In this document: one piece after another, positions 3,488-45,271 of the stretch
Numbering within the stretch: the first letter of the stretch is position 1
Layout: every line of letters begins with the position of its first letter
Origin: Parabacteroides gordonii MS-1 = DSM 23371
GTDB taxonomy: Bacteria > Bacteroidota > Bacteroidia > Bacteroidales > Tannerellaceae
DNA length: 64,000 nucleotides
Assembly (NCBI RefSeq): GCF_000969825.1
Contig: NZ_KQ033919.1
Location: 300,030 to 364,029, forward strand
Direction: 5' to 3'
Made by a program: the position numbers and the translations under genes
The notes under the pieces: generated by a model
Databases searched by the model: none
Told to the model about the DNA's origin: nothing
Seen by the model: only the letters and a program-made list of their open reading frames with translations

Positions 3488-3552
3488 AGGAAATGACTTG
3501 CGGGAAGTGTTATTTTTGAAGTTATATAGCTTTATCGCGTAGCAAAATGAAA

Positions 3553-3584: not shown

Positions 3585-3595
3585 TGAATTTGCAA

Positions 3596-3627
3596 CAAAA
3601 GTAATCAAACCTTTTTTTCTCTCCAAA
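3596..3627 (-). promoter_or_regulatory. consensus promoter pointing away from the surface-protein gene
   Basis: On the minus strand TTTG (3627-3624) and TACTTTTG (3603-3596) are separated by 20 bp, a full Bacteroides promoter match. It faces the 3' end of a plus-strand gene, so nothing obvious lies downstream. It sits between the two palindromic sites, and inversion would aim it at the gene starting at 3881. Confidence 0.6.
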
Positions 3628-3707
3628 TCTTATCAACAGAAAGATTTTCAATACATTGAATATCCATTTTTCTGAAAATACAGCTTTATCATGTAACCTC
3701 TTGAAAG

Positions 3708-3739
3708 TGACTAGAAAAAACGATCGTTTTTTCTAGTCA
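3708..3739. repeat. perfect 32-bp palindromic site, right copy
   Basis: This is a perfect palindrome running from TGACTAGA through AACGATCGTT to TCTAGTCA. It lies 141 bp before the surface-protein start. It could be a recombinase site, an operator, or a strong hairpin in the leader. The nearly identical site 155 bp upstream favours the first. Confidence 0.75.
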
Positions 3740-3880
3740 TACTTATTTTGTTAAAAATAAAAATGTACTGATATACAGTGGTATACGTTGGTTAATTGCC
3801 AATGAGGTTCACTTACTTCCTCCTGAAATGGATAGGGAGTGTGTAATATTCGAATATCTAACAATAAATTATTAATAATT

Positions 3881-6800
3881 ATGATGAAACATCTATTATC
3901 ATTACTCATTCTTTGCACCATCCTTTTACCGGCCGGAGCAGCAGAGACAACGTACACGCGAACGTACGATATTAATGCCGGGTCTGTGACTATCGATGCT
4001 GCCGGTACTTACCTGATAACAGGTACAGGGGCAAAAACAACAAACACGATCAAGGTCAACGCATCAGGCCAAACAGTGAACATCACGATCCAAAGCATAC
4101 ATATTGAAGCTGACTTTTCTGTCGGTTCTCTTTTTGAGATTATAGGAGGAACGGTAAACTTAACGTTGTCCGGAACTAATATTTTAAGAGTGACGGGGGA
4201 TGGAGAGTACGGGAAAGAAAAAGCAGCCTTGCATATTTCCGAAAACCAGTCGCTCACTATAACGAAAGAAAGTGACGGGGCAAGCCTGACGGTGGATATG
4301 GGAAATGTCTGGGCGAGTGCCATAGGTGTAAACTATGAAGAGTTTACTTCTCTAAACTTTTATGGAGATCTAACTATAAATGGTGGGGCAATAACTGCTA
4401 TAATTCCGGCATATGTTCCGGCAATAAGCGGTTCTAATATTACTATTAACGGAGGATATATTGTGGGGGATGTAAAAGAAAGTAACTTTGACGGGTGCGC
4501 TCTCCAGAGTTCTAATAAAATAAAAATAACGGGCGGAACTGTTATTGGTAAATATGGAGATTACCCGGGTTTTATCGACGGGGGCGTTCCAACTATTATC
4601 ATCGGTGGAAGCGTATGGGCAAGCATGGAAGGTCAGTTTTCAAATTTTCAAGACGAATCAAACAACAAAGTGGTTATGAAAGAGGTTACTGTCTCTTCTG
4701 CCGGAGTCAAAGTGACAGGGCTGGATGGTGCTTCCGGTTACGCGACTGATGATATGTATGCTGATGAAAACGGCAAAGTGTACGTATGGCTGCCCGAAGG
4801 TAGCGAGACCCCTACTATTACTACTAGCGTCGCCCCGTCTTCATTCAATCTGACCGTTACGAAGAACGGTACAGTCTGGAACGATTATGCGCACGAATAT
4901 GCAATAATAAATAAAGAAACGTCGGCTGCTCTTTCGCGGATCATTGGCGGGAAAGTCTATTGCTATGACCTGGAAGATAAAACGTATACCTTCTTCGATG
5001 GTGTTCTGATTTCGCGAACGGATATAACTGTTAGCGGCGGCGCGGCAACCGTCGGTTATTTATCTGCCACGTTCGATACGCAGGGAGGATCGGCTGCTCC
5101 GGAGGAACAACTGTTCTTTCCGGGTGCGAAGGTGAACCGCCCTGTCGACCCGACAAGAGAGTTCTATGTTTTCAAAGACTGGACGACGGAAGCCGGAAAG
5201 GCGGAAAAAGTATGGAATTTCAATACGGTTCCAACAGGGGGGACTTCCCTTTATGCTCTTTGGGTAGCCAACAAGATCGCACTGAAAGGTGATGTGAGCC
5301 GGGAAATAAAAGGTACTTATGGTGCGGCTATTTCCGAATATAAACTTTCTACCCTGATAGACGACTCCGATAACTCGGGAGCGAAAACATATTCCGTAAA
5401 AGAGGGTAGTGTATTGCCTGCCGGTCTGACGCTTTCCGTCGATAAGATAACAGGTACTCCCACAACCGCCTGTACCGATAAAAAGGTGACTGTCACTATC
5501 ACAGCCGTCAACGGCGAAACAGCCGATGTGGAACTGACATTCAATATAGCCCGGGTAACACCGACTCTCACGTTGAATGGTAAAACGGCTTATTATACCG
5601 GCGAATATATCCGTATCGAAGCTATTCCCGGCAACGTATTGAGTGCGGATCAAGAGGCTTTCCTGAAGGCTGTGCAATATACGTATGTATTACAGCCGGG
5701 TAATGCTCCTGCCCCAAAAGCGGAAACAGCCAATAAGGGTGTGATCGAGGTTGGCGAATATAAGGTCACTGCCGTTTACCCGGAAAGCGACAACTACAGC
5801 TCTGCTTCTTCCTTCGAAGCTACTCTGACAATCAATGCATATACTCCCGATGCCGGAATAAAAACGACCGTGGAGGCGACGGAAGGGGATAACAGCTGGT
5901 ATACCGGCGAAATTAAGTTCAATGCTCCGGCCGGCCATCAGGTTTGCCTGTTGGAAGCCGAATCGTTGGTTTCCGATCCGGTGGTGTCGGCTGCCGGCCT
6001 GTTGCGTTCCGGCAAAGCGGCTCTTGCATGGGACGACCATTTCACCTGGACAAACGATGGTGAGTTCTCTATCAGTTATCTGCTGAAAAGTACGGCAGCC
6101 GATGCTACTCAAGGAGCTGTTTGTACCGATCGCCAGGCTATCACCGTGAAGCTCGATAAATCGGCTCCTGTGATTAGTGCGCCGCAGGGGTCGGGAAAAA
6201 CAATTTCGGTTACTGTCACTGATAATATCAGTGGTATTGCTTCTGTCGAATGCAAACTGGACAACCTGGTTCAAGTAATATCAGGGTTGAATGCCGGTGA
6301 TAAGTCGTATGTCTTGAACCTCCAGTCGGAATATGGTAATCATACGCTTTATCTCAAGGTGACTGATCGGGCCGGTCTTGTTGCGGAGCAGACTGTGACA
6401 GTGAAGCTGGAAGAGTCTCAACCGGAAACGCCGTCTATTCCGGATACTCCTTCGACGACTTACACGGTTATATTGCCGCAGGTGGAAGGAGCAGTGACTG
6501 ATCCGGTAGCCGGTAGTTACGAGATCGAATCGTGGAGTGATTTCCATTTCACCTTGACACTCGATGAGGAGTATAGCCAGTCAGTCCCGGTTGTCGCTAC
6601 CGACCGTGGCGAGACGATTGAGCCGCGTAGTAGTGACGGTACATACATTATCAAGCAGGTACGCCAGCCGATTGCGATCACTATCACTGGTATTGTGAAG
6701 AATCCCGACCCGGTAGCCAATGGACAGGTGGCTGCGGATGCGACGCAGGTCTGGACTTCGGGCGCTGTTCTCCATATCCATCTGCCGTCGCCCGAAGCGG

Positions 6801-17970: not shown

Positions 17971-19878
17971 TTATTTATCTTCCCAACCTTTGTTTTGTAC
18001 CAGATTCGGGTTCATTACCAGTTCTTCTTTCGGGATAGGCCAGTAGTAGCGGTAGTCATCCCAGGGTAATGTTCCTTTCACTGTATTGGTGTACGGGCTC
18101 TTCGGATAGCAGATAATGAAGCCCTGTTCGTCGACGAATACTGTTTTGTCCAATTCCACTTTGACTGCGATCTCCGGCTTTTCAGTATGTGAACCGTCAT
18201 ACAGATCTTGTACAGCCAGGAAGTTCATTCCACGCAAAGGAACGGTGAACAGTTTACCGGCTTTCCAACGCATCAGGTCTATATAACGATGATTCTCGAT
18301 AGCCATTTCAACGCGGCGTTCGCGGCGGATTTCACGCAACAACGGAGGAACCTGGTATTCCAGTTTGTCTGCATAAATCTTATCCAGACGGGGGTCGGCA
18401 GGTTCGCTACCCACCGTCAGGCGGGCAGACGGGTATTTGCTGAAATCGAAACCGGCACGTTCGCGCAATGCGTTGATCGTTTTGTCTACATCCGATTGAG
18501 ACAGAGTCCCGTTCAGTTCGTATTTGGCTTCAGCATATATCAGCAGTAATTCACCGTAGCGGAATTCGATAGCAGCCTGAATACCTTTTGTGGTACGGTC
18601 TTCTTCTATTTTGTCGCCCATCCAGTGTTTGATCACACGGTAACCGGTTACGGTCGAACCGCTGCCGGTATAGTTCAACCCCGGATAAGTGATACCATTC
18701 GTTTCAATATCGAGAACACCTCCCTGGTAGATCGTTACATGTTCGCCCGGGCGGCAGACAGTTTGTGTCAGACGCGGGTCGCGGTTTTCCAGTTCGGTCC
18801 ATTTGCCGTAACCCAGGAAGTTCGGGTTATTCGTGTAGTTGCCTTCACTGCCTCCGGTATAGATCGGACGTCCGTCGATACAAAGATATTCGTCGATCAT
18901 TCCGCGTGTGGCACCCATCGACTGGCGGTTGGAGTTATTCTGGTTGAAATAACGTTGTGCCGCGTGTCCGACTTTATTTTCCAGATAGGTACGTCCTAAA
19001 ATAACTTCAGGATTGGTCGACAGGTCGATCGCGGTGAACATCTTCCAGTACGCATTTTCTCCGGAGTTGTAAAGAGAGTATTTGCCAATTAAAGCTTCAC
19101 TGGCCTTAACCGCTTCTTCCAGGAATTTATTGGCTGTACTTTGAAGGTTTAGCTCAGTATGGTATTTACGGAATGTACCTTCAAACAGACAGATACGGGC
19201 TTTCAGGAAGTTTGCCTGATCCTTGTTCAGACGGTCTTTTTCCTGGTTGGCTTTTTCCGGTAACCATTCCACTGCTTTGTTGATACACATCAGAACGGAG
19301 TCCATCACCTCTGCGCGTGGAGTACGGGCGGCATACAGCTCTTCCGAGTCCACATTCAGGTCGCGGGTCAACCAAGGCACATCACCGAAGTAAAGCACTT
19401 TCAGATAATAATCCCAGGCTTTGAAGAAATAAGCTTCACCGGCATAGGCGTTTTTCTTTTCCGGGGTAAGTTCAGCTTTGTCGTAATGAGTAAGGAAGAA
19501 GTTTACTTTGCGCAGGTTCCACCAATACCAGCCGGTTTGCTCTGTAGCACCGGTCGGCACAATAAATTCGCCGGCCAGACCGGTGACTTCATTACCTGTT
19601 TTGATACAGTTGTCCGAATAATAGTCACCGTACATCAGCGGACTGCCGACAACGTTCAATACCGGAGTCTTGCCGTCTGACCAACCGCTTCCGTGACCGA
19701 TAATATAAAGAGGATAAAGGCTGTTCAGCATAAGCTTCAGGTCGGTTTCTGTTTTCCAGAAACTTTCGTCCGTAATCTGGTCCTGCGGGTAACGTTCCAT
19801 AAAGTCGTCGTTACAGCTCGGTAATAATACCGAAGCCATTCCGAGTGCCAATATATATTTCTTAAAATTGAATTTCAT
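17971..19878 (-). CDS. SusD/RagB-family glycan-binding lipoprotein (locus 1)
   Basis: This 635-residue SusD-like outer-membrane lipoprotein has the lipid-attachment Cys near residue 22 (L-L-P-S-C-N-D-D-F). The start D-D-F-M-E-R-Y-P-Q-D and the C-terminal R-R-E-R-R-V-E-M-A-x-E-N-H-R-Y-x-D-L-x-R-W motif are diagnostic. It forms a lid over the SusC transporter encoded 41 bp upstream and captures the substrate, which cannot be read from the sequence. Expression is expected to depend on the split hybrid regulator at 23201-27247. Confidence 0.95.
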   Translation of the reverse strand: MKFNFKKYILALGMASVLLPSCNDDFMERYPQDQITDESFWKTETDLKLMLNSLYPLYIIGHGSGWSDGKTPVLNVVGSPLMYGDYYSDNCIKTGNEVTGLAGEFIVPTGATEQTGWYWWNLRKVNFFLTHYDKAELTPEKKNAYAGEAYFFKAWDYYLKVLYFGDVPWLTRDLNVDSEELYAARTPRAEVMDSVLMCINKAVEWLPEKANQEKDRLNKDQANFLKARICLFEGTFRKYHTELNLQSTANKFLEEAVKASEALIGKYSLYNSGENAYWKMFTAIDLSTNPEVILGRTYLENKVGHAAQRYFNQNNSNRQSMGATRGMIDEYLCIDGRPIYTGGSEGNYTNNPNFLGYGKWTELENRDPRLTQTVCRPGEHVTIYQGGVLDIETNGITYPGLNYTGSGSTVTGYRVIKHWMGDKIEEDRTTKGIQAAIEFRYGELLLIYAEAKYELNGTLSQSDVDKTINALRERAGFDFSKYPSARLTVGSEPADPRLDKIYADKLEYQVPPLLREIRRERRVEMAIENHRYIDLMRWKAGKLFTVPLRGMNFLAVQDLYDGSHTEKPEIAVKVELDKTVFVDEQGFIICYPKSPYTNTVKGTLPWDDYRYYWPIPKEELVMNPNLVQNKGWEDK

Positions 19879-19919: not shown

Positions 19920-22900
19920 TTAGAAACCTACTTGCAGACCGAATGCAACGGAACGCATCATCGGATAGTCGGATGAGATCTGATCCGGGTCGTACAGATT
20001 CGGAACTTTAGTTATTTCAAACAGATTGTAGCCAGACAGGCTAAAGCGTACAGTCGACAATTTTATTTTGTTTGTCCATTCTCTAGGCAACGTATAACCT
20101 ACTGCCAGCGTTTTCAGACGAAGATAGGCGGCATTGAAAATATAACCGGTCTGTGCAACCTGATTCTGTCCGCGTCCTGCATACATCGGATATTTGGCAT
20201 TAGTTCGTTCCGGTGTCCATGAGTTGTTGTACATCTCCCAGTTACCTGCCGTACCGGAGCCACCCCAGAATACGTTATCGTCAATCCAAACGTCTCTTTT
20301 ACCGATTCCCTGGAAGAAGATATTCAGGTCGATGTTTTTCCAGGAAATATTACCGGTGATACCATACTGGAAACGCGGGGTTGTGTTACCGATGATCTTC
20401 CTGTCTCCTGGATCATCTACTGTATTTTCTCCCTTTGATATTTCATTATCACCGTTCAGGTCAGCATATCTGACATCTCCCGGATACCAGGTTGAGGCAG
20501 TAGTCGTTACTTTGTTCTGTGACGGGCCAATTAAGGTGTACTTACCACTCTCGTCGACAGTGAAATCGCTTTCTTGTAGAATTCCTACGGTTTCATATCC
20601 CCAGATTTCACCCATTTTCATGCCGTCATACAATGTATCCAGCAACTTGTTGGGATTCCCTGTGAACTTGACAACTTCAGATTGATAATCGGAAAGAACC
20701 AGTCCGACATCGTAACGGATGCCATTGCTCAGTTGGTCTCTCCATTTCAGACTCAATTCCCAACCGTTAGTTTTTAACTCCCCGGAGTTGCGTTTTGGAA
20801 CAGATGCACCCAGTACGGCTGGAAGTTTGGTTCCGCTCATCAAAATATCGGTAGTCCGGCGAGTGTACCAGTCGAAGGAAGCATCCAAACGTCCGTGCAA
20901 TGCGGTTACATCCAGACCGAAGTCTAATGTCTTGGCTGTTTCCCAGGTAAGGTCGTTCGGAACGATCGCTGTCGGGTTCATACCTTTGATTTGTTCGCCG
21001 TTCATCGACCAAGAGATCAGACTGGCTGCTCCGTAGCTGGCAATGTAGGCGTAGTTGGCCACATTCTGGTTACCTAAAGAACCCCATGAACCGCGCAGTT
21101 TCAGGTTATCCAGCCAACTGCGTGTACCCGTCATGAATTTCTCTTCCGAGATTCTCCAACCGGCGGAGAAAGAAGGGAAGAACTGGAAACGTGTATCCTT
21201 CGAAAAGCGGGAAGTACCGTCGTAACGACCGCTGAACTCAAACAGATAACGTCCGTCGTAATCGTAGTTGGCACGAACGAAAGCTCCGCGGATAGCCCAA
21301 TGCTCAAAGTTATCGCCTGTGTATTGTGCACCGTTGGTCATACCCAGTGTCGGTAGGTCGTTGGTGATGACATCCTCCGCCTTTCCCCATGTTTTACGAA
21401 ACTGATACCATTCCTGATTGAAACCTGCTACGGCGGAAACATTATGTTTGCCGAATGCTTTATTGAAATTGGCGTAAGCGTTTATCGTATAATAATCGGA
21501 ATGTGTCGTTTCTTCTCTTACACTGGAAGGAGATGTATGCGTATTCACCGTACCCTGCCAAGAGTCTACCACATAGTTGCGTACCGGGATAAATTGTTTC
21601 TGGAAATAATCAGTCGGACGGTAAGACAACTCGGCTTTCACATTAAACTCCGGAGTGATCGTGATGGTTGGAGTAATATTGAATACGGCATTCGTATTTC
21701 GGGTTTCTTGCGTTGCCCCATAGGCCAGCCATCCCAGGATATTATCTGTATATGTATTAGGAATCGGATCGTTCGGGCCGGTCATAATCGGCATGTTCAG
21801 GTTACGTCCCGGTTCGTTTTTCATAGCTTTCCATACCGATCCTTTCTGAACGTTCATGAAAGGCTCATTATATTTACTCGTGTTGTATGAGATCTTGGAA
21901 GCAACATCCAGCCAGTCATTAATTTTTGAATTCAGGCTCATATTGATGTTGTAACGGTTCTGTATATCCGTATTGATCTTATACATACCTTCCTGACGCT
22001 GGTACCCCAAAGAGATGTAATAACGCGTTTTGGCAGAACCACCGCTGATAGAGAGGTTGTGGCGCTGAAGCGGTGTCCAGTCTTTCACTCCCACATCGTA
22101 AGGGTTCATGTTCGCTACCCATGTCATGGCAGAGGTACTACCTTCGTTGTAAATCCATGCATTTTCCGGTCTTGGATCTTCCATGTATTTTTTCTTGGCA
22201 GCCAACAAACTTTCCATCCAGGGAGTCACTGTACCACCGGTCATTAAAGCCTGCTTGTTGGAAGCCAGCTGATGGGTGTAAGAGTCCAGGATATCCGGTA
22301 TGCGGGAAGGAGTGTTCCACTGCAGGTTCAGATTGTACGTAACGGTTGCCTTGGAGTCATTCTTACCGGATTTAGTCGTGATCAACATCACCCCGTAAGT
22401 AGCACGTGCACCGTAGATTGCGGAAGCGGAAGCATCTTTCAATACAGAGATATTTTCGATGTCGCTCGGGTTCATCATGTTCAGATAATCCGCATCGACC
22501 TGGATACCGTCTACCATGATCAGCGGACTTCCGGTTTTTACTTCCCATTCGTCCGTCTTGTCCTTTTTCAGACCGATGGATGTACCACCACGCACATTGA
22601 AAGTAGGTGCTGCATTCGGTGATGAGTTGGTAGCTGCTACATTCAAGTTAGGTACAACTCCCTGCAAAGCCTGGCCTACGTTGGCAACCGGCTTGTTTTC
22701 AAGTACCTCCGAACCGATGGAAGCGACGGCACCTGTCAGGTTCACTTTCTTTTGTGTACCGAAACCGACTACGACCACTTCGTCGAGTGCCTGTAAGTCT
22801 TCTCTCATAGCTACGTTTACCACCGTTTTCCCTTTTACAGGGACGGTTTGAGTTTGATACCCCATATAAGAGAATACCAACTCGCCGTTTGCGGGCACAG

Positions 22901-23090
22901 ACTGAAGCCTGAAATTACCGTCCATGTCGGTAATACTACCGGTGGTTGTTCCTTTCACCTGGATTGTAACCCCGATCAAAGCGTCTCCTTTTTCGTCTTT
23001 AACATTACCGGACACGCTGATGTCCTGGGCAAATAATTGATGAGCAAAAAGGAAAAAGCCCATCAAAGTGGTTAAAACTTTGTTCTTCAT
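19920..23090 (-). CDS. SusC/RagA-family TonB-dependent transporter (locus 1)
   Basis: This 1056-residue outer-membrane barrel imports an oligosaccharide or similar ligand. A signal peptide is followed by a carboxypeptidase-regulatory-like domain (about 25-100; G-A-L-I-G-V-T-I-Q-V-K-G-T), a TonB-box region (L-D-E-V-V-V-V-G-F-G-T-Q), the plug (about 120-240) with L-K-D-A-S-A-S-A-I-Y-G-A-R, and the barrel ending in aromatic F. It is complete. It starts a susCD transcript and lies 110 bp after the end of the hybrid regulator gene. Confidence 0.95.
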   Translation of the reverse strand: MKNKVLTTLMGFFLFAHQLFAQDISVSGNVKDEKGDALIGVTIQVKGTTTGSITDMDGNFRLQSVPANGELVFSYMGYQTQTVPVKGKTVVNVAMREDLQALDEVVVVGFGTQKKVNLTGAVASIGSEVLENKPVANVGQALQGVVPNLNVAATNSSPNAAPTFNVRGGTSIGLKKDKTDEWEVKTGSPLIMVDGIQVDADYLNMMNPSDIENISVLKDASASAIYGARATYGVMLITTKSGKNDSKATVTYNLNLQWNTPSRIPDILDSYTHQLASNKQALMTGGTVTPWMESLLAAKKKYMEDPRPENAWIYNEGSTSAMTWVANMNPYDVGVKDWTPLQRHNLSISGGSAKTRYYISLGYQRQEGMYKINTDIQNRYNINMSLNSKINDWLDVASKISYNTSKYNEPFMNVQKGSVWKAMKNEPGRNLNMPIMTGPNDPIPNTYTDNILGWLAYGATQETRNTNAVFNITPTITITPEFNVKAELSYRPTDYFQKQFIPVRNYVVDSWQGTVNTHTSPSSVREETTHSDYYTINAYANFNKAFGKHNVSAVAGFNQEWYQFRKTWGKAEDVITNDLPTLGMTNGAQYTGDNFEHWAIRGAFVRANYDYDGRYLFEFSGRYDGTSRFSKDTRFQFFPSFSAGWRISEEKFMTGTRSWLDNLKLRGSWGSLGNQNVANYAYIASYGAASLISWSMNGEQIKGMNPTAIVPNDLTWETAKTLDFGLDVTALHGRLDASFDWYTRRTTDILMSGTKLPAVLGASVPKRNSGELKTNGWELSLKWRDQLSNGIRYDVGLVLSDYQSEVVKFTGNPNKLLDTLYDGMKMGEIWGYETVGILQESDFTVDESGKYTLIGPSQNKVTTTASTWYPGDVRYADLNGDNEISKGENTVDDPGDRKIIGNTTPRFQYGITGNISWKNIDLNIFFQGIGKRDVWIDDNVFWGGSGTAGNWEMYNNSWTPERTNAKYPMYAGRGQNQVAQTGYIFNAAYLRLKTLAVGYTLPREWTNKIKLSTVRFSLSGYNLFEITKVPNLYDPDQISSDYPMMRSVAFGLQVGF

Positions 23091-23200: not shown

Positions 23201-24364
23201 TCAGCTATCGGTATTTCCGTTAGAATTAACTTTTCGGTATTCTTTTGGTGAAAGACCGTATACCTGCTTAAAGCAAGAAGCGAAATAACCACTACTGCTG
23301 AATGCTACTTTCTCCAGGATCTCGCTTACGCTTAAATCTGTTTCACGCAACATTTGGGCCGCAGCTTCCAGGCGCAGATTTTTGATCATTTCGGCGGGAG
23401 AGAGGGCGGTCAGTGTTTTCGCTTTCCTGTAGAAGTTAGCCCGACTCATGCCTATTTCTTTACAGATCATGTCTACATCCAGGTCGGGATTGGAGAAATT
23501 AGCCTTTACAATAGCCGTGTATTGTTTCAGGAACTCTTCGTCGAGCGGGGATGTCTTTACACCTAACTCGTTGAGATCGATCTTTTTCTCATATTTCTTA
23601 CGAATCTGCTTGCGGGAAGCCAGTAGGTTGCGTACCCGGGCTTGCAGTTGCACGATGTCGAACGGTTTGATGATATAGTCGTCCGCCCCGACGTTATACC
23701 CTTCGGTTATCTGCGACGGCATTGTCTTGGCTGTCAGGAGGATTACCGGTATATGAGACAATTTCTGGCTTTGTTTGACCTGTCGGCACAGTTCGAGCCC
23801 GTCCATTTCCGGCATCATGATATCGCTAATGATCAGGTCGGGCACTTTTATAGCGATTTGTTTGAGCGCTTCTTGCCCGTTCTCTGCTTTTTGTACCTTA
23901 TATTCGTTTTCAAACTGTTTTTCCAGATACTCCAATACATCTTTATTATCTTCCACTATAAGTAATGTCTGCGAAATGACCGGAATTTCTTTCTTATCCG
24001 AAGGAAGGAACTCCTGTGTATTTACCAGTAAAGACGGTTCCGTATGTTTCACCGGATTGCTGACCGGTTTTTGGGGAAGCGGGAGCAAAACATGTATCCG
24101 TGTACCGGCCTGCGGCATGTTTTCAGCCCAGATTATTCCACCATGTTGTTCCACGATAAAACGGGCCAGACTCAATCCGATACCTGAACCTGCAATCTGG
24201 TGGTGTAAGTCCTGCGAAGATCGGTAGAATGGTTCGAAGATTTTTTCGATATCTTCCGAAGCTATACCCTCCCCATTATCAGATACTTGTATGTGTAAAT
24301 AGTAGTCTTCCGAGAGGTCTCTGTTTTGCCAGAGTTTCACACGAACTACGCACTCCTTTAACAC
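23201..24364 (-). CDS. C-terminal part of the split hybrid regulator (ATPase end, receiver, AraC domain)
   Basis: This open part of 387 codons starts in the HATPase domain after the N-box. G1 (D-N-G-E-G-I) and G2 (G-S-G-I-G-L-S-L) are followed by the receiver with phospho-acceptor Asp in L-I-I-S-D-I-M-M-P-E-M-D-G and then an AraC-type DNA-binding domain (last 100 residues, P-A-E-M-I-K-N-L-R-L). The GTG at 24364 is the first possible start but lies in the reversed segment, so this is the tail of the full gene rather than a gene of its own. If expressed alone it would be a cytoplasmic response regulator without kinase input. Confidence 0.8.
   Translation of the reverse strand: MLKECVVRVKLWQNRDLSEDYYLHIQVSDNGEGIASEDIEKIFEPFYRSSQDLHHQIAGSGIGLSLARFIVEQHGGIIWAENMPQAGTRIHVLLPLPQKPVSNPVKHTEPSLLVNTQEFLPSDKKEIPVISQTLLIVEDNKDVLEYLEKQFENEYKVQKAENGQEALKQIAIKVPDLIISDIMMPEMDGLELCRQVKQSQKLSHIPVILLTAKTMPSQITEGYNVGADDYIIKPFDIVQLQARVRNLLASRKQIRKKYEKKIDLNELGVKTSPLDEEFLKQYTAIVKANFSNPDLDVDMICKEIGMSRANFYRKAKTLTALSPAEMIKNLRLEAAAQMLRETDLSVSEILEKVAFSSSGYFASCFKQVYGLSPKEYRKVNSNGNTDS
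24337..24348 (+). repeat. 12-bp inverted repeat, left arm (TCACACGAACTA)
   Basis: The arm is the exact reverse complement of 24767-24778. Read on the plus strand it encodes S-H-E-L joined to the reversed kinase core. Confidence 0.9.
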
Positions 24365-24766
24365 TTATCACCAATCCTCTTGAAGATATGTTGCGCCATA
24401 GTTCCTTCTCTATGGAGGTAAAAAACACGTTGCAACTGATGCGTAAAAACACGCAACGATTGCTTCTACTCGTTAATAATCTTATGGATGTGCAAAAATA
24501 CGACTCGCAAAAAATGGTTCTTCAAAAGGAGAAATTCGATCTGACTGTATTCATTAACGAATTATATGAGTTATTCGCTCCGGTAGCTAGGAACAGGAAC
24601 ATCTCATTTACCCTGAAAAATGATTTTTCGACAGACTTCTGCGTCTATTACGACAGGCAAGAGATTGAGAAAGTGATGTTTAACCTGCTATCGAATGCCT
24701 TTAAGTTCACATCCGAAGGGGGTACAATCGAAATGAAACTATCCGCTCTTTCCAACGAAAATGACA
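24349..24766 (+). mobile_element. 418-bp invertible coding segment carrying HisKA and N-box
   Basis: On the plus strand this segment encodes R-T-P-L-T-L-I-T-N-P-L-E through the N-box N-L-L-S-N-A-F-K-F to N-E-N-D-I-V, the missing centre of the surrounding minus-strand regulator. It has no start codon or promoter of its own that makes sense as a gene. It is bounded exactly by the 12-bp inverted repeats, as expected for a site-specific inversion inside a coding region (an intragenic inverton). Confidence 0.85.
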
Positions 24767-27247
24767 TAGTTCGTGTGAGAAGTTGGTGAAAAGGCGCATT
24801 CTTTCCTCGTGTAATTCTTTCATTTTTTCCTGTTCCAACTGTTTGAAACGAATGCTGCTTTCCAGCTCGTGACGTACTTTCTGATGATAAATAAACCGCC
24901 AGATGATGGTGCCAATAATGATGATATACAAGGTGTAAGCCCACCAGGTTTTGAATGGGGGAGGGCTTACGATGATGCTCATGGAGGCCTCTTGCGGATT
25001 CCACAGATTTTCGCTGTTGGCAACCTTTACTTTGAAATTGTAAGTACCCGGGGCCAAATTACTATAATAAGCGACCTTTCTTCCCCTCACATGGTTCCAC
25101 TCTTTTTCTACTCCTTCCATCCGGTAGGCGTATTGGTTCTGCTTCGGAGAAATAAAGTCCGGAGCAGTATATCCGATGGCAATGTTGGTTTCATTGGCCT
25201 TTAACCGGAGTGGTTGCGTGTTCTTAAATTCTACCGGATTATTATTGATAGATAAGGTGGTCAGATAGACAGGCGGAATATATGTGTTTTTGTTCATTTG
25301 GGAAGGGTTGAAGCATAGTATTCCCTTGTTTCCGGGAAAATAGAGAATACCTTGTTTATCGGTCGTTCCTGCGTGAATTGTAGGTTCCAGCACCAGCTGG
25401 CTGTCGTTCCGGACAGGCGAAAAGCGGTCTTCGGCCGGATCGAAACAGTACAGGTCATTGCCGGATAGAACCCATAAAAGCTGGTTACGGTCGTACACCA
25501 TCGTATAGATATAACCATCCGTGATCCCCTCTTTTCCGGTATACTGTTTGACCAGGTTCAACTCCTTATCGAAGCGGAATATGCTGTTCCCGTAGAATGA
25601 AACCCATATATTTTGCATTGAGTCGGTCTGTATGCCGCTCACTATTCCGGGTTTTATATTATCCGGCAAGTTGAGTTCCGGTGAAGAGACCGTCTTAAGT
25701 GTCTCCTTTTTCATATCATATTTGTAGATGCCCTGTCCGAGTGTCCCCATGACAAACACATCCGGCTCTACTTCCTTTATGGTGGTAACGAAATAAAACT
25801 TTTTGGTTGTCCCGTCCACTGGGAACTGGTTGATCTGTTTGCCATTCTCTATCATGACCAACCCTGTGCTGGAGTTTGTCGGTATCCATAACCTGCCCTT
25901 GCTGTCGTTTAGCAACGTATAGATATCGCCCCGCTGGAAATCGTAAAGCAGGCGGTAATCTTTCCATTTGCGGGAGAACAGGTAGACAGCCCCCTGGTTG
26001 GTGGCACAAATGATGCTGTCTCCTTTTATCAGCAACGATTTGAATATGTTTGAGCTGTAATTGCTTTTGTAAGGCGACTTCTTGGGATAGAATTGCTGGC
26101 TTTGCGTTTGCGGGTTGTAGCAGAACAGTCCGGCTCCTTCCGTTGCGAACCAGATGTTACCTTCGTCATCCTCTTCCCCTTTTCCCAGCAGTCCGGTAAA
26201 TTCGTTGGGGGTGATCTGGTAAAATTGCTTGCGGGCCGGACTGTAGTAATTCAGTCCTTTCCATGTTCCGGCCCATAAGGCTCCGGTGTTATCTTTCAGC
26301 AGGCTGTGCACGGAGTAATAGCTCAATGCCCCCGATTCGTCGGGGTTGAATTTGTAGGGAGTTACTTCCAGCGTTTGCCCGTCTACCTTATTCAGTCCGG
26401 AGAAGGTACCGAGCAGTAAGGTTCCCGGTATCGGTTCGGCGATGGCCCGGACTACGTTGCTGCTTAGCTTTGAGTTGGCGGTATTCAGGTGGACGAACTT
26501 ATTATTCTTTTTGTCCAGGTAGCAGATGCCGGAAGTTTCCGAAAGGATCCACAACCGTTTACTGCTGTCCGTAAACATTCTGCGGATGGCCCCTTTGATC
26601 AGCGAAGACGGATCATCCGGATCGTGTTGGAAATAGTGGACGACTTCCCTCTCTTTGTTCAGTACAGCCATCCCGGCCAATGTGCTGGCGACATACAGAT
26701 TGCCTTCGTCATCTTCCTGAATGCTTTTAATATTGGATGCGATGGGAGTCGACGATAACCAGTCTTTGTAAACGAGCGAGTCGCCCTGTTCGTCATACTG
26801 ATACAGGAATTTCTCGCCGCCCATCAGGAAATCACCGTTGCGGCTTAACATGCAGCAGTGCATGAACCGTGTCTCTTTTACCCGATAGCGTTTGATGTTG
26901 CCCGTCTGTCGTGTGATCTTATGGATACCGTGATCCGTTATTACCCAAATGTTTTTGTTCCTGTCTTCTCCGATATCCAGAATATTGTTATCCGTCAGCG
27001 AACAGGAGTCGGTCGGGTTATTCTTGTAAACGGTAAATTCATATCCGTCGTACCGGTGTAGTCCGCCCCGGGTACCCAGCCATAGGAAGCCGTCGGTATC
27101 CTGGTAGATATGCGAGACAGAACCCTGTGACAACCCGTCTTCCACCCCTATCTGTGTAAAAAAGTATGGAGAGGTTTCCATACCAGCCAAATGTTGGAAT
27201 ACAAGGAAAAAGACAGGCAAAAATAATTTAGTGGTTATTCTTGTCAT
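24707..27247 (-). CDS. N-terminal part of the split hybrid regulator (sensor and membrane helix)
   Basis: In the present orientation this frame makes 846 residues: signal peptide, two-component-regulator propeller blades (I-G-V-E-D-G-L-S-Q-G-S-V-S near residue 33; G-L-W-A-G-T type repeats), Y_Y_Y domain (about 670-750; S-N-L-A-P-G-T-Y-N-F-K-V-K-V-A-N), a membrane helix (W-A-Y-T-L-Y-I-I-I-I-G-T) and the first residues of the kinase to SHEL. Translation then enters reversed DNA and stops after about 20 foreign residues. The product could bind ligand but lacks the kinase core and regulator. A weak -7 match (TATCTTTA, 27314-27307) lies about 60 bp before the start. Confidence 0.85.
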   Translation of the reverse strand: MTRITTKLFLPVFFLVFQHLAGMETSPYFFTQIGVEDGLSQGSVSHIYQDTDGFLWLGTRGGLHRYDGYEFTVYKNNPTDSCSLTDNNILDIGEDRNKNIWVITDHGIHKITRQTGNIKRYRVKETRFMHCCMLSRNGDFLMGGEKFLYQYDEQGDSLVYKDWLSSTPIASNIKSIQEDDEGNLYVASTLAGMAVLNKEREVVHYFQHDPDDPSSLIKGAIRRMFTDSSKRLWILSETSGICYLDKKNNKFVHLNTANSKLSSNVVRAIAEPIPGTLLLGTFSGLNKVDGQTLEVTPYKFNPDESGALSYYSVHSLLKDNTGALWAGTWKGLNYYSPARKQFYQITPNEFTGLLGKGEEDDEGNIWFATEGAGLFCYNPQTQSQQFYPKKSPYKSNYSSNIFKSLLIKGDSIICATNQGAVYLFSRKWKDYRLLYDFQRGDIYTLLNDSKGRLWIPTNSSTGLVMIENGKQINQFPVDGTTKKFYFVTTIKEVEPDVFVMGTLGQGIYKYDMKKETLKTVSSPELNLPDNIKPGIVSGIQTDSMQNIWVSFYGNSIFRFDKELNLVKQYTGKEGITDGYIYTMVYDRNQLLWVLSGNDLYCFDPAEDRFSPVRNDSQLVLEPTIHAGTTDKQGILYFPGNKGILCFNPSQMNKNTYIPPVYLTTLSINNNPVEFKNTQPLRLKANETNIAIGYTAPDFISPKQNQYAYRMEGVEKEWNHVRGRKVAYYSNLAPGTYNFKVKVANSENLWNPQEASMSIIVSPPPFKTWWAYTLYIIIIGTIIWRFIYHQKVRHELESSIRFKQLEQEKMKELHEERMRLFTNFSHELCHFRWKERIVSFRLYPLRM
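24767..24778 (-). repeat. 12-bp inverted repeat, right arm
   Basis: On the minus strand it reads TCACACGAACTA and encodes the S-H-E-L of the upstream regulator half. Plus-strand reading gives TAGTTCGTGTGA, within the codons for V-R-V at the segment's other end. Confidence 0.9.
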
Positions 27248-27876: not shown

Positions 27877-28632
27877 TTATTCTATAACGGGGCGGTCATC
27901 TTCGCCGCCGCCACTGGATTTGCCACCCATCCAAAGGGTGATGCTGCTACTGCGCGGTGCTTTCAAAACGGCTCCGGTGGAGTATTGTGTAGTCACCGTT
28001 AGCGTGTATTCGCCATCGGCAAGGCCGGAAGGGATCAAAAGCATCAGTTCCGACGGCTTGTTGGAAGCAATCATGTCGGCATCGAGCTTTGTAACAACAC
28101 CTTCGCTGTTGGTCAGCGTTACGCCTACTGTCTCATTGTCGCCTATCACTTTCAGTGCGGCACCGCGAACCACAAGGTTGCGTCCGGAAGTAGCCGTACC
28201 GTCTTTAAGCCCGGTCTTGCGGTCTTCCGTTTCGAGGATGTACATTACGTTCGATTTCGTTCCCAGAATGCTGACCGATGTTTTAGCGATTTCTTCGCGT
28301 AAAGCCTTGTCTTGTGTGACAGCTACATAAATAGAGTTTTTTTCCTTGTTCCAAACGCCGCCTTCCACAATGCCGAGGAACTTCGCCACGGCGCGGAAGA
28401 TTCCGGTGTTCACGCTATATCCGCTCAGGATAAGGCGGGCAACGACCCGATTGTAGAGCGAAACGGAATGCCGGAGCGTTTCGATACGCAGTCCGGTATC
28501 TTCCTTCAACATTTCGCTGATGATGTCGTCGAAGTCTGCACTACCTGCCGATTCTAGCTGTAAGATCTTGTCATTCAGATCATCGGTGGTCACCGTGTTG
28601 TCGACGAGCCACCCTTTTAATACGTTTTGCAT
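27877..28632 (-). CDS. HU-like N-terminal domain and DUF4469 Ig-like domain protein
   Basis: From the ATG at 28632 this is 251 residues (M-Q-N-V-L-K-G-W-L-V-D-N-T-V), the usual family start. A frame start at 28680 would place a 15-bp inverted-repeat arm inside the coding region and is rejected. Residues 1-130 look like the HU-related DNA-binding domain of this Bacteroidales family. About 135-235 is a DUF4469-type Ig-like fold (V-V-R-G-A-A-L-K-V-I-G ... D-G-E-Y-T-L-T-V-T-T-Q-Y-S). The last 11 residues, GGGEDDRPVIE, equal those of the HU-like protein at 56-508. Its function is not known. Its upstream region carries a candidate invertible promoter in the OFF orientation. Confidence 0.8.
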   Translation of the reverse strand: MQNVLKGWLVDNTVTTDDLNDKILQLESAGSADFDDIISEMLKEDTGLRIETLRHSVSLYNRVVARLILSGYSVNTGIFRAVAKFLGIVEGGVWNKEKNSIYVAVTQDKALREEIAKTSVSILGTKSNVMYILETEDRKTGLKDGTATSGRNLVVRGAALKVIGDNETVGVTLTNSEGVVTKLDADMIASNKPSELMLLIPSGLADGEYTLTVTTQYSTGAVLKAPRSSSITLWMGGKSSGGGEDDRPVIE

Positions 28633-28648
28633 AAGCTTGAATGGATTA

Positions 28649-28817
28649 AGTCCTAATAGAACTAGGTTAGTCTTATGCATTGATAGCTAGGCAAAAAGAT
28701 CTACCGGATTCTTTAAAGGCTTCTTTAATTTTTTTTGTAAAATCCTTCTTTAACTCTTGTAAATCCGATTGTTATCGTTACCTTTGGCACCATTATTAAC
28801 AGAGTTCTATTAGGACT
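28649..28817. mobile_element. candidate invertible promoter segment
   Basis: AGTCCTAATAGAACT at 28649-28663 is repeated exactly in inverted orientation at 28803-28817. The 139 bp between hold a consensus promoter that points right, away from the DUF4469 gene. The left arm ends 16 bp before that gene's ATG. Flipped, the -7 element would fall at about 28687-28680 on the minus strand, giving a leader of about 40 nt. Confidence 0.75.
28757..28786 (+). promoter_or_regulatory. promoter inside the invertible segment, currently facing away
   Basis: TTG at 28757-28759 and TACCTTTG at 28779-28786 are 19 bp apart. No plus-strand gene follows for more than 17 kb, so in this orientation it has no coding target. 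Confidence 0.7.
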
Positions 28818-40595: not shown

Positions 40596-43500
40596 TCATT
40601 TCTCCTGATACTCTGTGGGCGACATGCCGTAAACCGCTTTAAAGCTGCGCGCGAAGTAAGACCTGCTGCTGAAACCGATGTGTTGGGCGATCTCGGAGAC
40701 GTTCATATTCGACTCTTTCAGCAGTTTAGCTCCTGCTTCCAGACGGATATTCTTGATCAGTTCGATGGGGGAGAGCCCGGTAACCGCTTTCACTTTCCGG
40801 TAGAAATTCGCACGGCTCATGCCCAACGCCTGGTAGATGACCGAGACATCCAGCTCCTGGTTCGAGATATTTGCCTTCACGATATCTATATATTGCGTCA
40901 GGAAGTCGTTGTCTTCTTCCGGCTCCTCTACACCCAGGTTACGCAGGGTCAGTGATTCGCCGTAAATGATTTTCATCTTCTCCCGCAGCGAGAGTAGGTT
41001 TCTGATGCGTGCTTTCAGCAGAGATACCTGAAATGGTTTCACGATGTAATCGTCCGCTCCGGCTTCCAGCCCCTCTTCAATCTGCGACACCATCGACTTG
41101 GCTGTTAGCAAGATAACCGGTATATGGCAGAAATCCTGGCTTTCCTTGATCCGTTTGCATAGCTCGAGCCCGTTCATTTCCGGCATCATCACGTCGCTGA
41201 TCACGATATTCGGGAAGGTTCCTTCCAGCTGTTCCAGCGCATCTTTGCCGTTGATGGCTTTCATGACGATGTAGTCGGGTTGTAGTTGCTGTTCCAGGTA
41301 TTGCAGCACTTCCTGGTTATCGTCTACAAGCAGGACGGTTTGTTTGTTGCGGGCTTCCGTTTCTTCCACCAGGAGGGCAACCTTTTTGCTGATCTCGGAC
41401 AAATGCGGGTTCACGGCTTCCTCTTCCTTCTTTATATCCTGTTTTTCTGTGTCCGGGAGAAGGATCAGGAAGTCGGTGCCTTTTTCTTCGGAGCTATCCG
41501 TCCAGATGCATCCCTGGTGTTGCAGGACGATAGAGCGGGTCAGGCTGAGGCCGATCCCCGTACCTGCCACTTGTTTGTGTATATCTTCCTCGGCCCGGTA
41601 GAAGGGTTCGAATATCTTTTCGGCTTCCTCTTTGTTCAGCCCTTTACCCGTGTCGACGATCTCTATCAACAGATACGACGACTCGATCAGGGTCGAGGCT
41701 TGCTGTTCGGGGAACATCGGCAACATTTCGCACTGACTCTGGGAGATCCGTTTGATACGGATCGTGACACTGCCATTCGCCGGAGTGAATTTGAAGGCAT
41801 TGGATAGCAGATTGAAAAAGACTTTCTCTATCTCCGCCTCATCATAGCACGTGAAGTAAAGCTCGGGCAATTCATTCTCCAAAGTGAACCGGATATCCCG
41901 GTTATGGGCCACGCTTTCGAACGAGTGGTACATTTCACGGATGAATGAGGAGAAGTTGAACCGTGTCTTTTGCAAGATCGATTTCCCGGCCTCATACCGC
42001 TGGATATCCATCAGGTTGTTGACCAGCAGTAACATCCGTCCGGTATTCTTTTTGATCATCTGCAAGGCCTCTTTCACTTCCGGTGAGAAGGTGACACGCT
42101 GGAGGAGATCGTTTAGCGGATTGATGATTAATGTAAGCGGTGTCCGCAGCTCATGGGAGAAGTTCGTGAACATGCGCATCCGTTCTTCATGCAATTCATT
42201 CATCTTATCCTGTTCCAGCTGTTTGTATTTCTCTTCCCGTTCCCGTTCATGCTTGCGGTGCTGTTGCTGCACGATGCGCATGATGACCAACGAAATGATA
42301 ACCAGGTAGGTGAGGTATGCCCACCAAGTCTGGTAGAACGGAGGGTTGACGGTGATATGCAAGGTCGCTTCCTGCGGGTTCCAGACTCCGTCGTTATTGG
42401 AGGCCTTTACCCGGAAAATATATTTGCCGGGGCGGAGGTTACTGTAGTAGGCTTCCCGGCGGTTTCCGATCTGGTGCCAGCTCTGGTCGGCTCCTTCCAG
42501 CATGTATGCGTAGGAGTTCTCCTCGGAATGCACGTAATTGATGGCGGTATACCGTATCGTTATGCTGCCCTGGTCGGCGTCCAACGTGATTTTATCTTCG
42601 TATTCCGAAGGGTATAATATTGTATTCTGTTCATTCTTGTCGGACGAGTTCCCCGGGTTGTTTACTACTAAAGAAGTAATATAAATAGGAGGGGAATTGG
42701 GGTTCGTAGTCATCTTCTGCGGGTTTATCGACAAGATGCCCCGGTTGCCGGGAAAATAGAGCGTACCGTCCGACGAGATACAGTCGCCGGCATAAAGCGT
42801 GAACTCCTGGGTGGGGGAATCGACCGGTTTGACTTGATTAAACTTGTCGTAGAAGCGGTTTAACTTATATAACTCGTTTCCGGTGACAACCCATATATCC
42901 CCTTTCCGGTCGATTGAAATGGATGTGATATAACTGGCGGATAAGCCGTCTTCTTTCTGGTAATTCTTCACCAGCTCGAGGTTCTTGTCCAGCCGGAACA
43001 AGCCGCCTTTTGTGGTAGCGATCCAAAGCTCGTCCTCGTAATCCTTGAGGATATAAGCGATTGTTCCCAGCCGTTGGTTCTTATCTTTACTGCGAAGCCG
43101 TACGCTGATGTTCTGCATCGCCAGCTTATTCATGTCGTATAGATAGAGACTGTCGTTGTAACCGCCGAGCAGGAAGACGTTCGGTTCTATCTCGTTGATG
43201 GCGTTGATACCTTTCAACTGCTGCTGCTCGCCGTTGATGTCGAACATGTTTATATAATCCTTCCCATCTACCAGAACCGTTTGATACGGAGTAAAAGTCG
43301 GTATCCACAGGCGTTGCCTGCTATCCAGGTATAAGGTCATGATGTCATTATGCTTGAAATCATACAACAGCCTGAACTGCTTGCTTTTGATAGAGAACAG
43401 GTAGACGGAACCGAAATGAGTGGAACAAAAGATGGAGTCCCCTTTAATCAGGATCGATTTGATAATATTGATCTCATAGTTCCCTTCATGCAACGGCTTG

Positions 43501-44684
43501 ATCGGGTATAGTTGTTGTTTACCGTTTAGCGGGTCGTAAAACAGGAGACCGCCCCCTTCGGTGGCAAACCACATCTTCCCGTTCTCATCTTCACCGCCTT
43601 TGCCGATAATTCCGGTGAAGGCTTCCGGAGTGATGAAAGACACCGGCTTATAGAAAGGGCTGTGGTAATTGACTCCGGCGGAATAAGTGCCGACCCATAA
43701 GGTCTGATCCCGGTCGATCAACATGCTGTGGATCGAATAATGGCTCAGGCTTCCTTCTTCGTCCATATTCATCTCGATGGGAGAGATATGCATGTCGGTT
43801 GTGTTGAGGATGTTCAGGCCTCTGAATGTCCCGATCAGGATGGAGTCTTTATTGAGGGGGAGCATTGTGCGCACCGAGTTGTTGTTTAACCCGGAGTTGC
43901 TGGTGTTGAGGCGTTTGAAAGACTGCTTTTCTTTATTATAGACACAAACACCGCTTTCATCGGTACCGATGAAAGTATTATTGGCAGACGCCAATAATAC
44001 AGTAATTGTACTAGTCGGAAGTGTTTCCCGGTTGCTGCTACTGTCAGCCGGGAAATGATGTTTCAGTTTCCAGTCGGACGAGAATATATAAAGCCCGCTT
44101 TCTTCCGTTCCGATGTAGATGTCTTCCTGCTCATCCTGCACGATTGCGTAGATGGGCGATTCCACCTCGGTGAGATAAGGCATGTATTCCACTGTCTTAT
44201 CCGGAGAACATTTCAGCATGCTTCGTGTCGTGAATGCGTATAAGTGGCCGTCCGAATGCTTGAAGAAGCGGTGTACCGCATTCGTACTTATGTCGGGGTT
44301 GATGATCTGCGGATAGAACCGGGTGATCTTTTTGGTCTTGTAATCGATGCAGTTCATACCGTTGGACGTCCCCACCCAGATATTCTTTTGGCTATCCTCG
44401 TTGATGGAACGGATGTAATTGTCGCTGATCGACGCCTGGTTGTTCACCTCGTTCTGATAGATCTTAAACTCATAACCGTCATACCGGTTAGCCCCGTTTC
44501 GCGTCCCGAACCAGATATATCCTTCCGAGTCCTGGAAGATATTGAGAACGGAAACTTGAGAAAGACCGTCTTCCACTCCGAGATGCGAGAAAAAGAAAGG
44601 CCTTTCATTCCTGCCGGATACAGAAACGAAGAATAAGGATAGTGTAAGGAATAAAACCAGCCTGCCAATGAATCTCATACTCAT
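40596..44684 (-). CDS. hybrid two-component sensor-regulator of locus 2, intact
   Basis: This is an intact hybrid regulator of 1362 residues. A signal peptide and propeller repeats (G-V-E-D-G-L-S-Q-V-S-V-L-N near the start) are followed by the Y_Y_Y domain, a membrane helix near 790, HisKA with F-S-H-E-L-R-T-P near 844, N-box N-L-L-S-N-A-F-K-F near 961, G2 box G-T-G-I-G-L-S-L, a receiver with Asp in V-I-S-D-V-M-M-P-E-M-N-G near 1163, and an AraC domain in the last 100 residues. The start at 44684 overlaps the HU-like gene stop by 4 bp (ATGA); a second ATG at 44678 has better AGGAGG spacing. It should sense the locus 2 glycan in the periplasm and switch on susCD2. It is a paralogue of the split regulator and shows what that gene should look like. 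Confidence 0.93.
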   Translation of the reverse strand: MSMRFIGRLVLFLTLSLFFVSVSGRNERPFFFSHLGVEDGLSQVSVLNIFQDSEGYIWFGTRNGANRYDGYEFKIYQNEVNNQASISDNYIRSINEDSQKNIWVGTSNGMNCIDYKTKKITRFYPQIINPDISTNAVHRFFKHSDGHLYAFTTRSMLKCSPDKTVEYMPYLTEVESPIYAIVQDEQEDIYIGTEESGLYIFSSDWKLKHHFPADSSSNRETLPTSTITVLLASANNTFIGTDESGVCVYNKEKQSFKRLNTSNSGLNNNSVRTMLPLNKDSILIGTFRGLNILNTTDMHISPIEMNMDEEGSLSHYSIHSMLIDRDQTLWVGTYSAGVNYHSPFYKPVSFITPEAFTGIIGKGGEDENGKMWFATEGGGLLFYDPLNGKQQLYPIKPLHEGNYEINIIKSILIKGDSIFCSTHFGSVYLFSIKSKQFRLLYDFKHNDIMTLYLDSRQRLWIPTFTPYQTVLVDGKDYINMFDINGEQQQLKGINAINEIEPNVFLLGGYNDSLYLYDMNKLAMQNISVRLRSKDKNQRLGTIAYILKDYEDELWIATTKGGLFRLDKNLELVKNYQKEDGLSASYITSISIDRKGDIWVVTGNELYKLNRFYDKFNQVKPVDSPTQEFTLYAGDCISSDGTLYFPGNRGILSINPQKMTTNPNSPPIYITSLVVNNPGNSSDKNEQNTILYPSEYEDKITLDADQGSITIRYTAINYVHSEENSYAYMLEGADQSWHQIGNRREAYYSNLRPGKYIFRVKASNNDGVWNPQEATLHITVNPPFYQTWWAYLTYLVIISLVIMRIVQQQHRKHEREREEKYKQLEQDKMNELHEERMRMFTNFSHELRTPLTLIINPLNDLLQRVTFSPEVKEALQMIKKNTGRMLLLVNNLMDIQRYEAGKSILQKTRFNFSSFIREMYHSFESVAHNRDIRFTLENELPELYFTCYDEAEIEKVFFNLLSNAFKFTPANGSVTIRIKRISQSQCEMLPMFPEQQASTLIESSYLLIEIVDTGKGLNKEEAEKIFEPFYRAEEDIHKQVAGTGIGLSLTRSIVLQHQGCIWTDSSEEKGTDFLILLPDTEKQDIKKEEEAVNPHLSEISKKVALLVEETEARNKQTVLLVDDNQEVLQYLEQQLQPDYIVMKAINGKDALEQLEGTFPNIVISDVMMPEMNGLELCKRIKESQDFCHIPVILLTAKSMVSQIEEGLEAGADDYIVKPFQVSLLKARIRNLLSLREKMKIIYGESLTLRNLGVEEPEEDNDFLTQYIDIVKANISNQELDVSVIYQALGMSRANFYRKVKAVTGLSPIELIKNIRLEAGAKLLKESNMNVSEIAQHIGFSSRSYFARSFKAVYGMSPTEYQEK

Positions 44685-45271
44685 TCCTCCTTCTCTTGCA
44701 GGCCGTATTGCGCATTGGAACGGTAGCCCAAACGAATGATTTTCCCTTCGGTTAGTAAAGTCCGGAGATCTTTCAACGCGATGTATTTCGAGCAACCGTT
44801 GATGGAGCGGCACGTAAAGCTGGAGATCGTCTTATTCTGTTTCAGGTAATTCAATATATTGGCTTTCCGCTTCTCTTCCGTGTATCCTTTCAGGCGGCTG
44901 GGCTCGTTTGCCCGTTCCAGCTTCATCTGTCGCAACTCATTTTTCAACTCCTTGGAGCAGCGAAAGACTACTTTGCTGAATTTCACCAGATGAGGGGTGA
45001 TTTGCTTCTCACTGGATAAGGGCGGGCACTTCAATGAGGCGTTGAACGTTCCCAGTCCTTCCAGTTCGACGATAGCCCCGTATTTGAGATGGGAGGCGAT
45101 GCGGTTCTTCAACGCTTCCAGCATTCCCTTCACATCCGAAGAAGAGAAAGCGCTGATTTCGGAGATCTCGTCGCAAAGCTCGTTGATGCGTATAGTATAT
45201 TGGTTTACCTGGCGGGCATGGAGGTTGTCCCCCTTCCCCGGATTCTTAAATAGGTTATAAGTGGCTGACAT
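44681..45271 (-). CDS. HU-like DNA-binding protein with winged-helix-like C-terminus
   Basis: The first 120 of 196 residues follow the Bacteroidales HU-like pattern (Y-N-L-F-K-N-P ... G-A-I-V-E-L-E-G-L-G-T-F-N-A-S-L ... V-V-F-R-C-S-K-E-L). The last 70 (R-K-A-N-I-L-N-Y-L-K-Q-N-K-T-I-S-S-F-T ... L-R-T-L-L-T-E-G-K-I-I-R-L-G-Y) look like a small winged helix. It overlaps the hybrid regulator start by 4 bp, so the two are translated together. This coupling suggests the HU-like protein helps control locus 2, perhaps by binding the 22-bp-period repeats just upstream; that is an inference. Confidence 0.8.
   Translation of the reverse strand: MSATYNLFKNPGKGDNLHARQVNQYTIRINELCDEISEISAFSSSDVKGMLEALKNRIASHLKYGAIVELEGLGTFNASLKCPPLSSEKQITPHLVKFSKVVFRCSKELKNELRQMKLERANEPSRLKGYTEEKRKANILNYLKQNKTISSFTCRSINGCSKYIALKDLRTLLTEGKIIRLGYRSNAQYGLQEKEE

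Follow-up and report, generated by a model that had tools for sequence, protein, structure and literature searches.

Described inversion systems

Intragenic invertons, in which the inverted DNA falls within one coding sequence, have already been described (Chanin et al., 2024, Nature, as cited in PMC12632263, PMC12548429 and PMC11868660). In Bacteroides fragilis the tyrosine invertase Tsr0667 controls SusC/SusD shufflons (PMC4747536; PMC11852207) together with nine other regions (PMC4747536), and work on inflammatory bowel disease cohorts reports that stretches within many kinds of Bacteroidales genes, among them regulatory genes, switch orientation (PMC10939037). A two-component system gene of Bordetella pertussis phase-varies by frameshift (Stibitz, 1989, a title cited in PMC11868660). 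Here we describe a hybrid two-component regulator gene within a 64,000-nucleotide stretch of Parabacteroides gordonii MS-1 = DSM 23371 (contig NZ_KQ033919.1, positions 300,030 to 364,029; hereafter the window), the catalytic core of which is interrupted by a 418-bp segment lying in reverse. The segment is found in both orientations in nature, and we hold it to be very probable that it forms an intragenic DNA-inversion switch, likely flipped at its 12-bp repeats by a Tsr-type tyrosine site-specific recombinase, that toggles the gene between a complete sensor-kinase-regulator and a kinase-less fragment.

The locus shares with the intragenic invertons of Chanin et al. (2024) both the confinement of the inversion to one coding sequence and the bacterial order. 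Such invertons are often without a known recombinase (PMC12548429), whereas the arms here resemble a defined site class, and this switch also differs in being conserved between species and in disrupting the catalytic core of a regulator. The proposed mechanism is akin to the Tsr0667 system in that one tyrosine invertase would act at many distant regions, SusC/SusD loci included; it differs in that the inversion lies inside a regulator, which goes unmentioned in the available accounts of Tsr0667, where SusC/SusD shufflons and other invertible regions are the targets. The intragenic regions of PMC10939037 offer the likeness that regulatory genes flip, and this regulator gene is not named in the accessible portion of that article. 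As in B. pertussis, it is the two-component system itself that would be phase-variable, by DNA inversion here and by frameshift there. No description of an inversion inside a hybrid two-component regulator was found in the open-access literature searched, outside which most subscription papers fall. An earlier note on this DNA, made from the sequence alone, had called such an inversion rare among described systems, which is fair, although the intragenic invertons described in 2024 mean that it is not without precedent. What is new is a conserved intragenic inverton that breaks a regulator's catalytic core; intragenic invertons as such are known.

A reversed segment within a regulator gene

The elements of the switch, on the coordinates of the window, are as follows.

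23201..27247, minus strand: gene for a hybrid two-component regulator, split in the backward orientation seen here; from open reading frames (ORFs) and in-silico flip, with domains from the full-length protein P0001
24707..27247, minus strand: backward-state N-terminal product of 846 amino acids, with propeller sensor, Y_Y_Y, a membrane helix (by eye) and 19 out-of-frame residues past S-H-E-L
24767..24778, minus strand: inverted-repeat arm, which reads TCACACGAACTA on that strand and supplies the S-H-E-L codons of the kinase H-box; from repeat search and flip
24349..24766, no strand: invertible 418-nt segment, in forward orientation residues ~828-966 (the rest of HisKA and the start of HATPase_c); from flip, domains and comparison with Parabacteroides faecis
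24337..24348, plus strand: inverted-repeat arm TCACACGAACTA with V-R-V-K codons on its outer side; from repeat search, with an extended site, AGTTTCACACGAACT, at 24333-24347
23201..24364, minus strand: backward-state C-terminal ORF of 387 amino acids from GTG, with partial HATPase_c, receiver and AraC-type domain; junction LKECVVRVKL as in proteins P0121-P0123

As sequenced, the gene thus reads as two minus-strand ORFs, 24707-27247 (846 amino acids) and 23201-24364 (387 amino acids, GTG start). The earlier note had seen in this an inversion bounded by exact 12-bp inverted repeats, and this is borne out, since the arms at 24337-24348 (TCACACGAACTA) and 24767-24778 (TAGTTCGTGTGA) match as reverse complements at every base and enclose 418 nt. 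Reversal of 24349-24766 in silico reproduces the single frame that it had obtained, of 1348 codons plus a stop, with the same stop and 0 bases lost, and in the flipped sequence the arms do encode S-H-E-L and V-R-V as it had proposed. The segment therefore lies wholly within one ORF, once flipped, and is flanked by inverted repeats, two of the properties by which an intragenic inverton is recognised.

The arm 12-mer occurs at only two places in the 6.79-Mb genome, which are the two switch arms. By chance about 1.5 exact 12-bp inverted repeats are expected in 7 kb, and two further exact 12-bp pairs (I11 and I13) lie within the same 7 kb as the switch. As a control, 27 distinct H-box contexts were examined, and a 12-nt inverted repeat lies 300-560 nt downstream in three of them. 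Besides the window locus and that of P. faecis, this is the case in a Clostridium locus (L073), where the repeat is AT-rich, in another register and apparently accidental. Given this expectation and the outcome of the control (3/27, one apparently accidental), a lone 12-nt repeat is little proof, and because such repeats alone are common by chance the weight of the case falls on the restored frame and on the relatives. Beyond chance expectation are the exact placement of the repeats at both breakpoints, the recovery of the frame on reversal and the occurrence of natural copies in both orientations.

Both orientations among relatives

Relatives were gathered by a protein search with the 846-residue fragment, in which 7999 candidates were scored and 154 proteins reached E <= 1e-150 (120 of them listed); 41 were inspected. 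The intact gene and the repeats that the earlier note had suggested looking for were both found. P0001 is a natural full-length form of 1348 amino acids, 1335 of which match the flipped window protein, with 2 of the 13 differences inside the segment; its cluster has 85 member sequences on 6 contigs, the longest of 4,460,853 bp. The gene of P. faecis JCM 18682 (L055) is uninterrupted, with 1034 identities over 1317 aligned residues and 73% identity in DNA, and both arms are kept at 12 of 12 positions. Reversing the P. faecis segment in silico gives a predicted product of 840 amino acids, and a protein of exactly this length, P0003, is identical to it at 835/840 positions and shares its out-of-frame tail SHFRWKVLIISSQ. 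P0004 in turn is the full-length twin of the P. faecis form (1341/1345 identical). A third lineage has the full-length (ON) protein P0006 together with the backward (OFF) C-terminal product P0122 (99.2% over 379 amino acids), which begins MLKECVVRVKL like the downstream ORF of the window; P0121 is 97.6% identical to P0006. For three backward forms, P0011 (source name Parabacteroides segnis), P0013 and P0123, the proteins compared included no close full-length twin. The first two both stop 10 residues past S-H-E-L; P0123 carries the downstream junction and could belong with either. Both orientations are accordingly present in three lineages and the backward orientation in two or three more; occurrence in both states in nature is a third property of an intragenic inverton. 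Three further proteins, P0124, P0125 and P0127, begin at the GTG of V-R-V-K, which fits the backward state and could also reflect cut contigs; P0126, whose start is more internal, is left out of the count of backward forms.

Among the 13 nearest matches (67-99% identity), 10 are full length and three truncated, and V-R-V-K/R is kept at the second arm in nine of the 10 full-length proteins; the next eight, P0014-P0021, are without it. Taken together, 18 of the 21 nearest matches (P0001-P0021) are full length.

These relatives bear directly on two other accounts of the backward segment. One is that a single inversion at short repeats became fixed, so that the strain carries a pseudogene that does not switch. 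Inverted repeats as short as 12 bp do arise by chance, and mixed states were seen in no reads. Against this, the same inversion is present at the same arms in other species, near-identical intact copies exist, and the three truncated proteins among the 21 nearest all end 10-13 residues past S-H-E-L, whereas the ends of 19 truncated proteins inspected in a paralogue group are scattered, from before the H-box to 292 residues past it. We therefore consider a fixed inversion improbable. Less credible still, to the point of being nearly negligible, is an artefact in which software or chimeric DNA reversed the segment. That the evidence consists of assemblies leaves some room for it, yet backward forms recur in clusters from other species (P0003, 101 members on 8 contigs; P0011, 141 members on 5 contigs) and the backward junction is exactly that predicted from the forward form. 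The earlier note had named a single orientation or an assembly error as what would undo an inversion switch; both orientations in three lineages, as read from assemblies and not from reads, answer that concern.

The paralogue group (P0063-P0119, several named Parabacteroides goldsteinii) is itself a hybrid two-component regulator, in which truncated forms are spread over 831-1136 amino acids and include two 1034-residue forms on 53 and 56 contigs. Some of the truncations are frameshift-like and some resemble cut contigs.

Predicted effect on the regulator

A profile search of the full-length twin P0001 finds Reg_prop, Y_Y_Y, HisKA (816-880), HATPase_c (929-1058), Response_reg and HTH_18, so that propeller sensor, Y_Y_Y, HisKA, HATPase_c, receiver and AraC-type domain stand in one protein, as is expected of a hybrid two-component regulator. 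Only Reg_prop and Y_Y_Y exceed the cut-offs in the 846-residue fragment, and the 387-residue fragment retains partial HATPase_c, the receiver and the AraC-type domain. The alternation between a complete sensor and a kinase-less fragment claimed in the earlier note thus holds on both flip and domain search. Because the segment corresponds to residues ~828-966, the backward state parts the phospho-acceptor histidine from the remaining kinase. Signalling would be lost in this state, since the cut falls just past the phospho-acceptor histidine of S-H-E-L and within the ATP-binding domain.

It is conceivable that the backward state is not off at all: translation of the C-terminal ORF from its GTG would then yield a signal-independent regulator, with the sensor as a protein of its own. 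We regard this as unlikely. Gene callers give 384-residue C-terminal proteins starting MLKECVVRVKL in other assemblies (P0121-P0123), and one TAnnTTTG promoter-like box in the backward segment, present in P. faecis too, is directed at the C-terminal ORF. Such a box is, however, expected in 25% of shuffles and overlaps conserved codons, and the first in-frame codon of the P. faecis backward C-terminal ORF is GAG and not GTG.

Arm conservation and site class

The arms are conserved in P. faecis beyond the gene as a whole: 7 of 7 comparable arm codons are unchanged, where the rate of same codons over the whole gene is 49%. The H-box arm also falls within the gene's longest stretch of identity, 35 nt. 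Taken alone, this codon and run conservation offers modest evidence. The extended arm at 24333-24347 matches AGTYYYN4GDACT exactly, which is reportedly the consensus of Tsr0667-inverted regions in B. fragilis and a further likeness to that system. The related pattern AGTTC-N5-GAACT is found at 54 sites in this genome against 2 for the reversed pattern, and within the genus the strongest excess is in this genome and in genomes G012 and G037. All 20 loci of this genome (L136-L155) chosen for a listed pair hold inverted pairs of this site class, 163-1197 bp long, 15 of which overlap no ORF of at least 100 amino acids.

A half-site model was built from the 40 sites of these 20 loci, the switch arms being excluded. 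Under it the site at 24338, on the V-R-V arm, scores 17.6 bits and ranks second in the 64 kb, behind a neighbouring inverton site at 28808, and the P. faecis V-R-V arm scores 22.3 bits, the top of its 12.4 kb, where the next site has 5.1. The inner half of the H-box arm scores 14.1 bits in the window and 8.5 in P. faecis, a difference that arises because flipping exchanges the inner halves. On sequence, the switch arms resemble the genome-wide AGTTC-N5-GAACT class of inversion sites. Conserved F-S-H-E codons would prevent a full site at the H-box arm, and the incomplete site may slow flipping.

The switch could also be real and be flipped by some other recombinase, or by general short-repeat recombination, and not by the enzyme of the AGTTC-N5-GAACT sites. 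The outer half-site at the H-box arm is poor, the other arm has AGTTT in place of AGTTC, and intragenic inversions in Bacteroides thetaiotaomicron are often unlinked to known recombinases according to PMC12548429. Against these points, one arm ranks second under a model that excluded it, its P. faecis counterpart is by far the best site of that locus, and the H-box arm has an inner half within the top 2.3e-5 of half-site positions. On balance a different enzyme seems rather unlikely.

Candidate recombinases

A profile search of the genome gives 66 Phage_integrase and 4 Resolvase matches. Nineteen integrase ORFs were traced, 14 of which form a related paralogue group; NCBIfam, run on 10 of the 19, places L159 alone above its cut-offs, as XerD. 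The position of sites relative to recombinase genes was considered in 20 loci, made up of 17 recombinase loci, covering 19 of the 66 tyrosine-recombinase matches, and three picked for their sites. No site of at least 13 bits was found in those 17 loci and, because none lies beside the 19 genes, the enzyme would act in trans. Co-occurrence was assessed with one query and 30 of 81 listed recombinase matches in 10 relatives, one of which had none. Among the matches compared, those nearest to the L160 protein (72%) are in the site-rich G012 and G037, where the L162/L164/L165/L168 group also finds its nearest matches (65-82% in G012, G037 and G021). AGTTC-N5-GAACT outnumbers its control by 45 to 2 in G012, 46 to 2 in G037 and 21 to 2 in G021, and this last site-rich genome has only a 49% match to the L160 protein. 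Either the L160 protein or the L162/L164/L165/L168 group could be the invertase, and these candidates are a lead only. A trans-acting Tsr-type tyrosine invertase is the likely agent of flipping.

In the mechanism that we propose, such a recombinase, acting in trans, would invert the segment at the 12-bp repeats, reversibly within one cell line. In the forward state the propeller domain is predicted to sense, the kinase to autophosphorylate and the AraC-type domain to activate the operon. In the backward state the sensor protein would stop 10-19 residues past S-H-E-L, signalling would be lost and, as a result, so would expression of the adjacent SusC/SusD genes. A bolder extension, doubtful at present and offered tentatively, is that the kinase H-box of one regulator clade serves as an attachment site of a global invertase, such that one enzyme would flip many surface-gene promoters and rewire the regulator above them, the backward state releasing a separate response-regulator/AraC protein.

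Several observations weigh against an inversion switch of this kind. As for the arms, the enrichment of AGTYYYN4GDACT in this genome is only mild (83 and 76 sites by strand, against 60 and 51), no more than 16 of the 38 genomes of the genus have AGTTC-N5-GAACT in excess of its control, and the 17.6 bits at 24338 lie low in the range of 16.2-27.3 (median 22.5) for the 40 known sites. The outer half-site of the H-box arm scores -10.3 bits in both species, the whole arm ranking 14th in the window, and position and co-occurrence, covering 19 of 66 matches and 30 of 81 listed ones respectively, single out no recombinase. As for the relatives, the P0001 cluster is without a source label, P0012 (71%) is without the V-R-V motif, the exact arm pair is present in 1 of 123 family genomes, and in the 37 other genomes of the genus searched for the protein no match to the sensor part exceeds 43% identity. 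The window genes upstream of the regulator have no match in the P. faecis locus, and it is from assembled sequences that we infer flipping within one culture.

Neighbouring genes and other invertible pairs

The regulator is followed by a SusC gene and then a SusD gene.

19920..23090, minus strand: SusC-like TonB-dependent receptor, probable target of the regulator; from domain search, syntenic in P. faecis and 86% identical
17971..19878, minus strand: SusD-like protein, probable target of the regulator; from domain search, with the gene start syntenic in P. faecis
28649..28817, no strand: promoter-type inverted pair of the same site class, outside the switch itself; from repeat search and model, with the window's best site at 28808

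The start of the P. faecis SusD protein is 96% identical over the 24 residues available at the locus edge. Hybrid two-component regulators of this family habitually control adjacent SusC/SusD genes, and because of this habit the regulator probably controls those beside it. A second hybrid two-component regulator in the window, 40596-44813, is uninterrupted at 1405 amino acids and 41% identical over the sensor part.

The pair at 28649-28817 is separated from the switch by some 4 kb and sits where an HU-DNA_bdg/DUF4469 gene (27877-28680) starts; the spacer of this pair is unlike that of the switch. Several of the L136-L155 pairs stand just upstream of a gene of about 1000 amino acids, and the three of these tested encode SusC-like receptors. 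In L148 (G000:C1:1993000-2001000) an AraC-type regulator gene (3789-4643) is enclosed in a 1197-bp inverted pair, 3461-4657, and one arm of the pair overlaps a DUF4493 gene at its start. In L153 (G000:C1:3371500-3378500) the arms of an AGTTC-N5-GAACT pair, 3121-3135 and 3681-3695, lie inside two divergent FecR (anti-sigma-like) genes, and reversal transfers the start codon and N-terminal part between them, which would give one N-terminus two alternative FecR bodies. L153 is an independent hint, at the level of sequence, which suggests that sites of this class can work inside coding sequence.

Significance

Most accounts of phase variation in gut Bacteroidales concern promoters that flip or surface genes that are shuffled. 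In the present case DNA inversion would disable and repair the very sensor-regulator of what is probably a nutrient-uptake locus, leaving part of the population to ignore a nutrient signal. Kept arms, a clear site class and paired orientations make both recombinase dependence and fitness directly testable. As the backward state is rendered by gene callers as fragments, similar switches may be hiding among pseudogenes.

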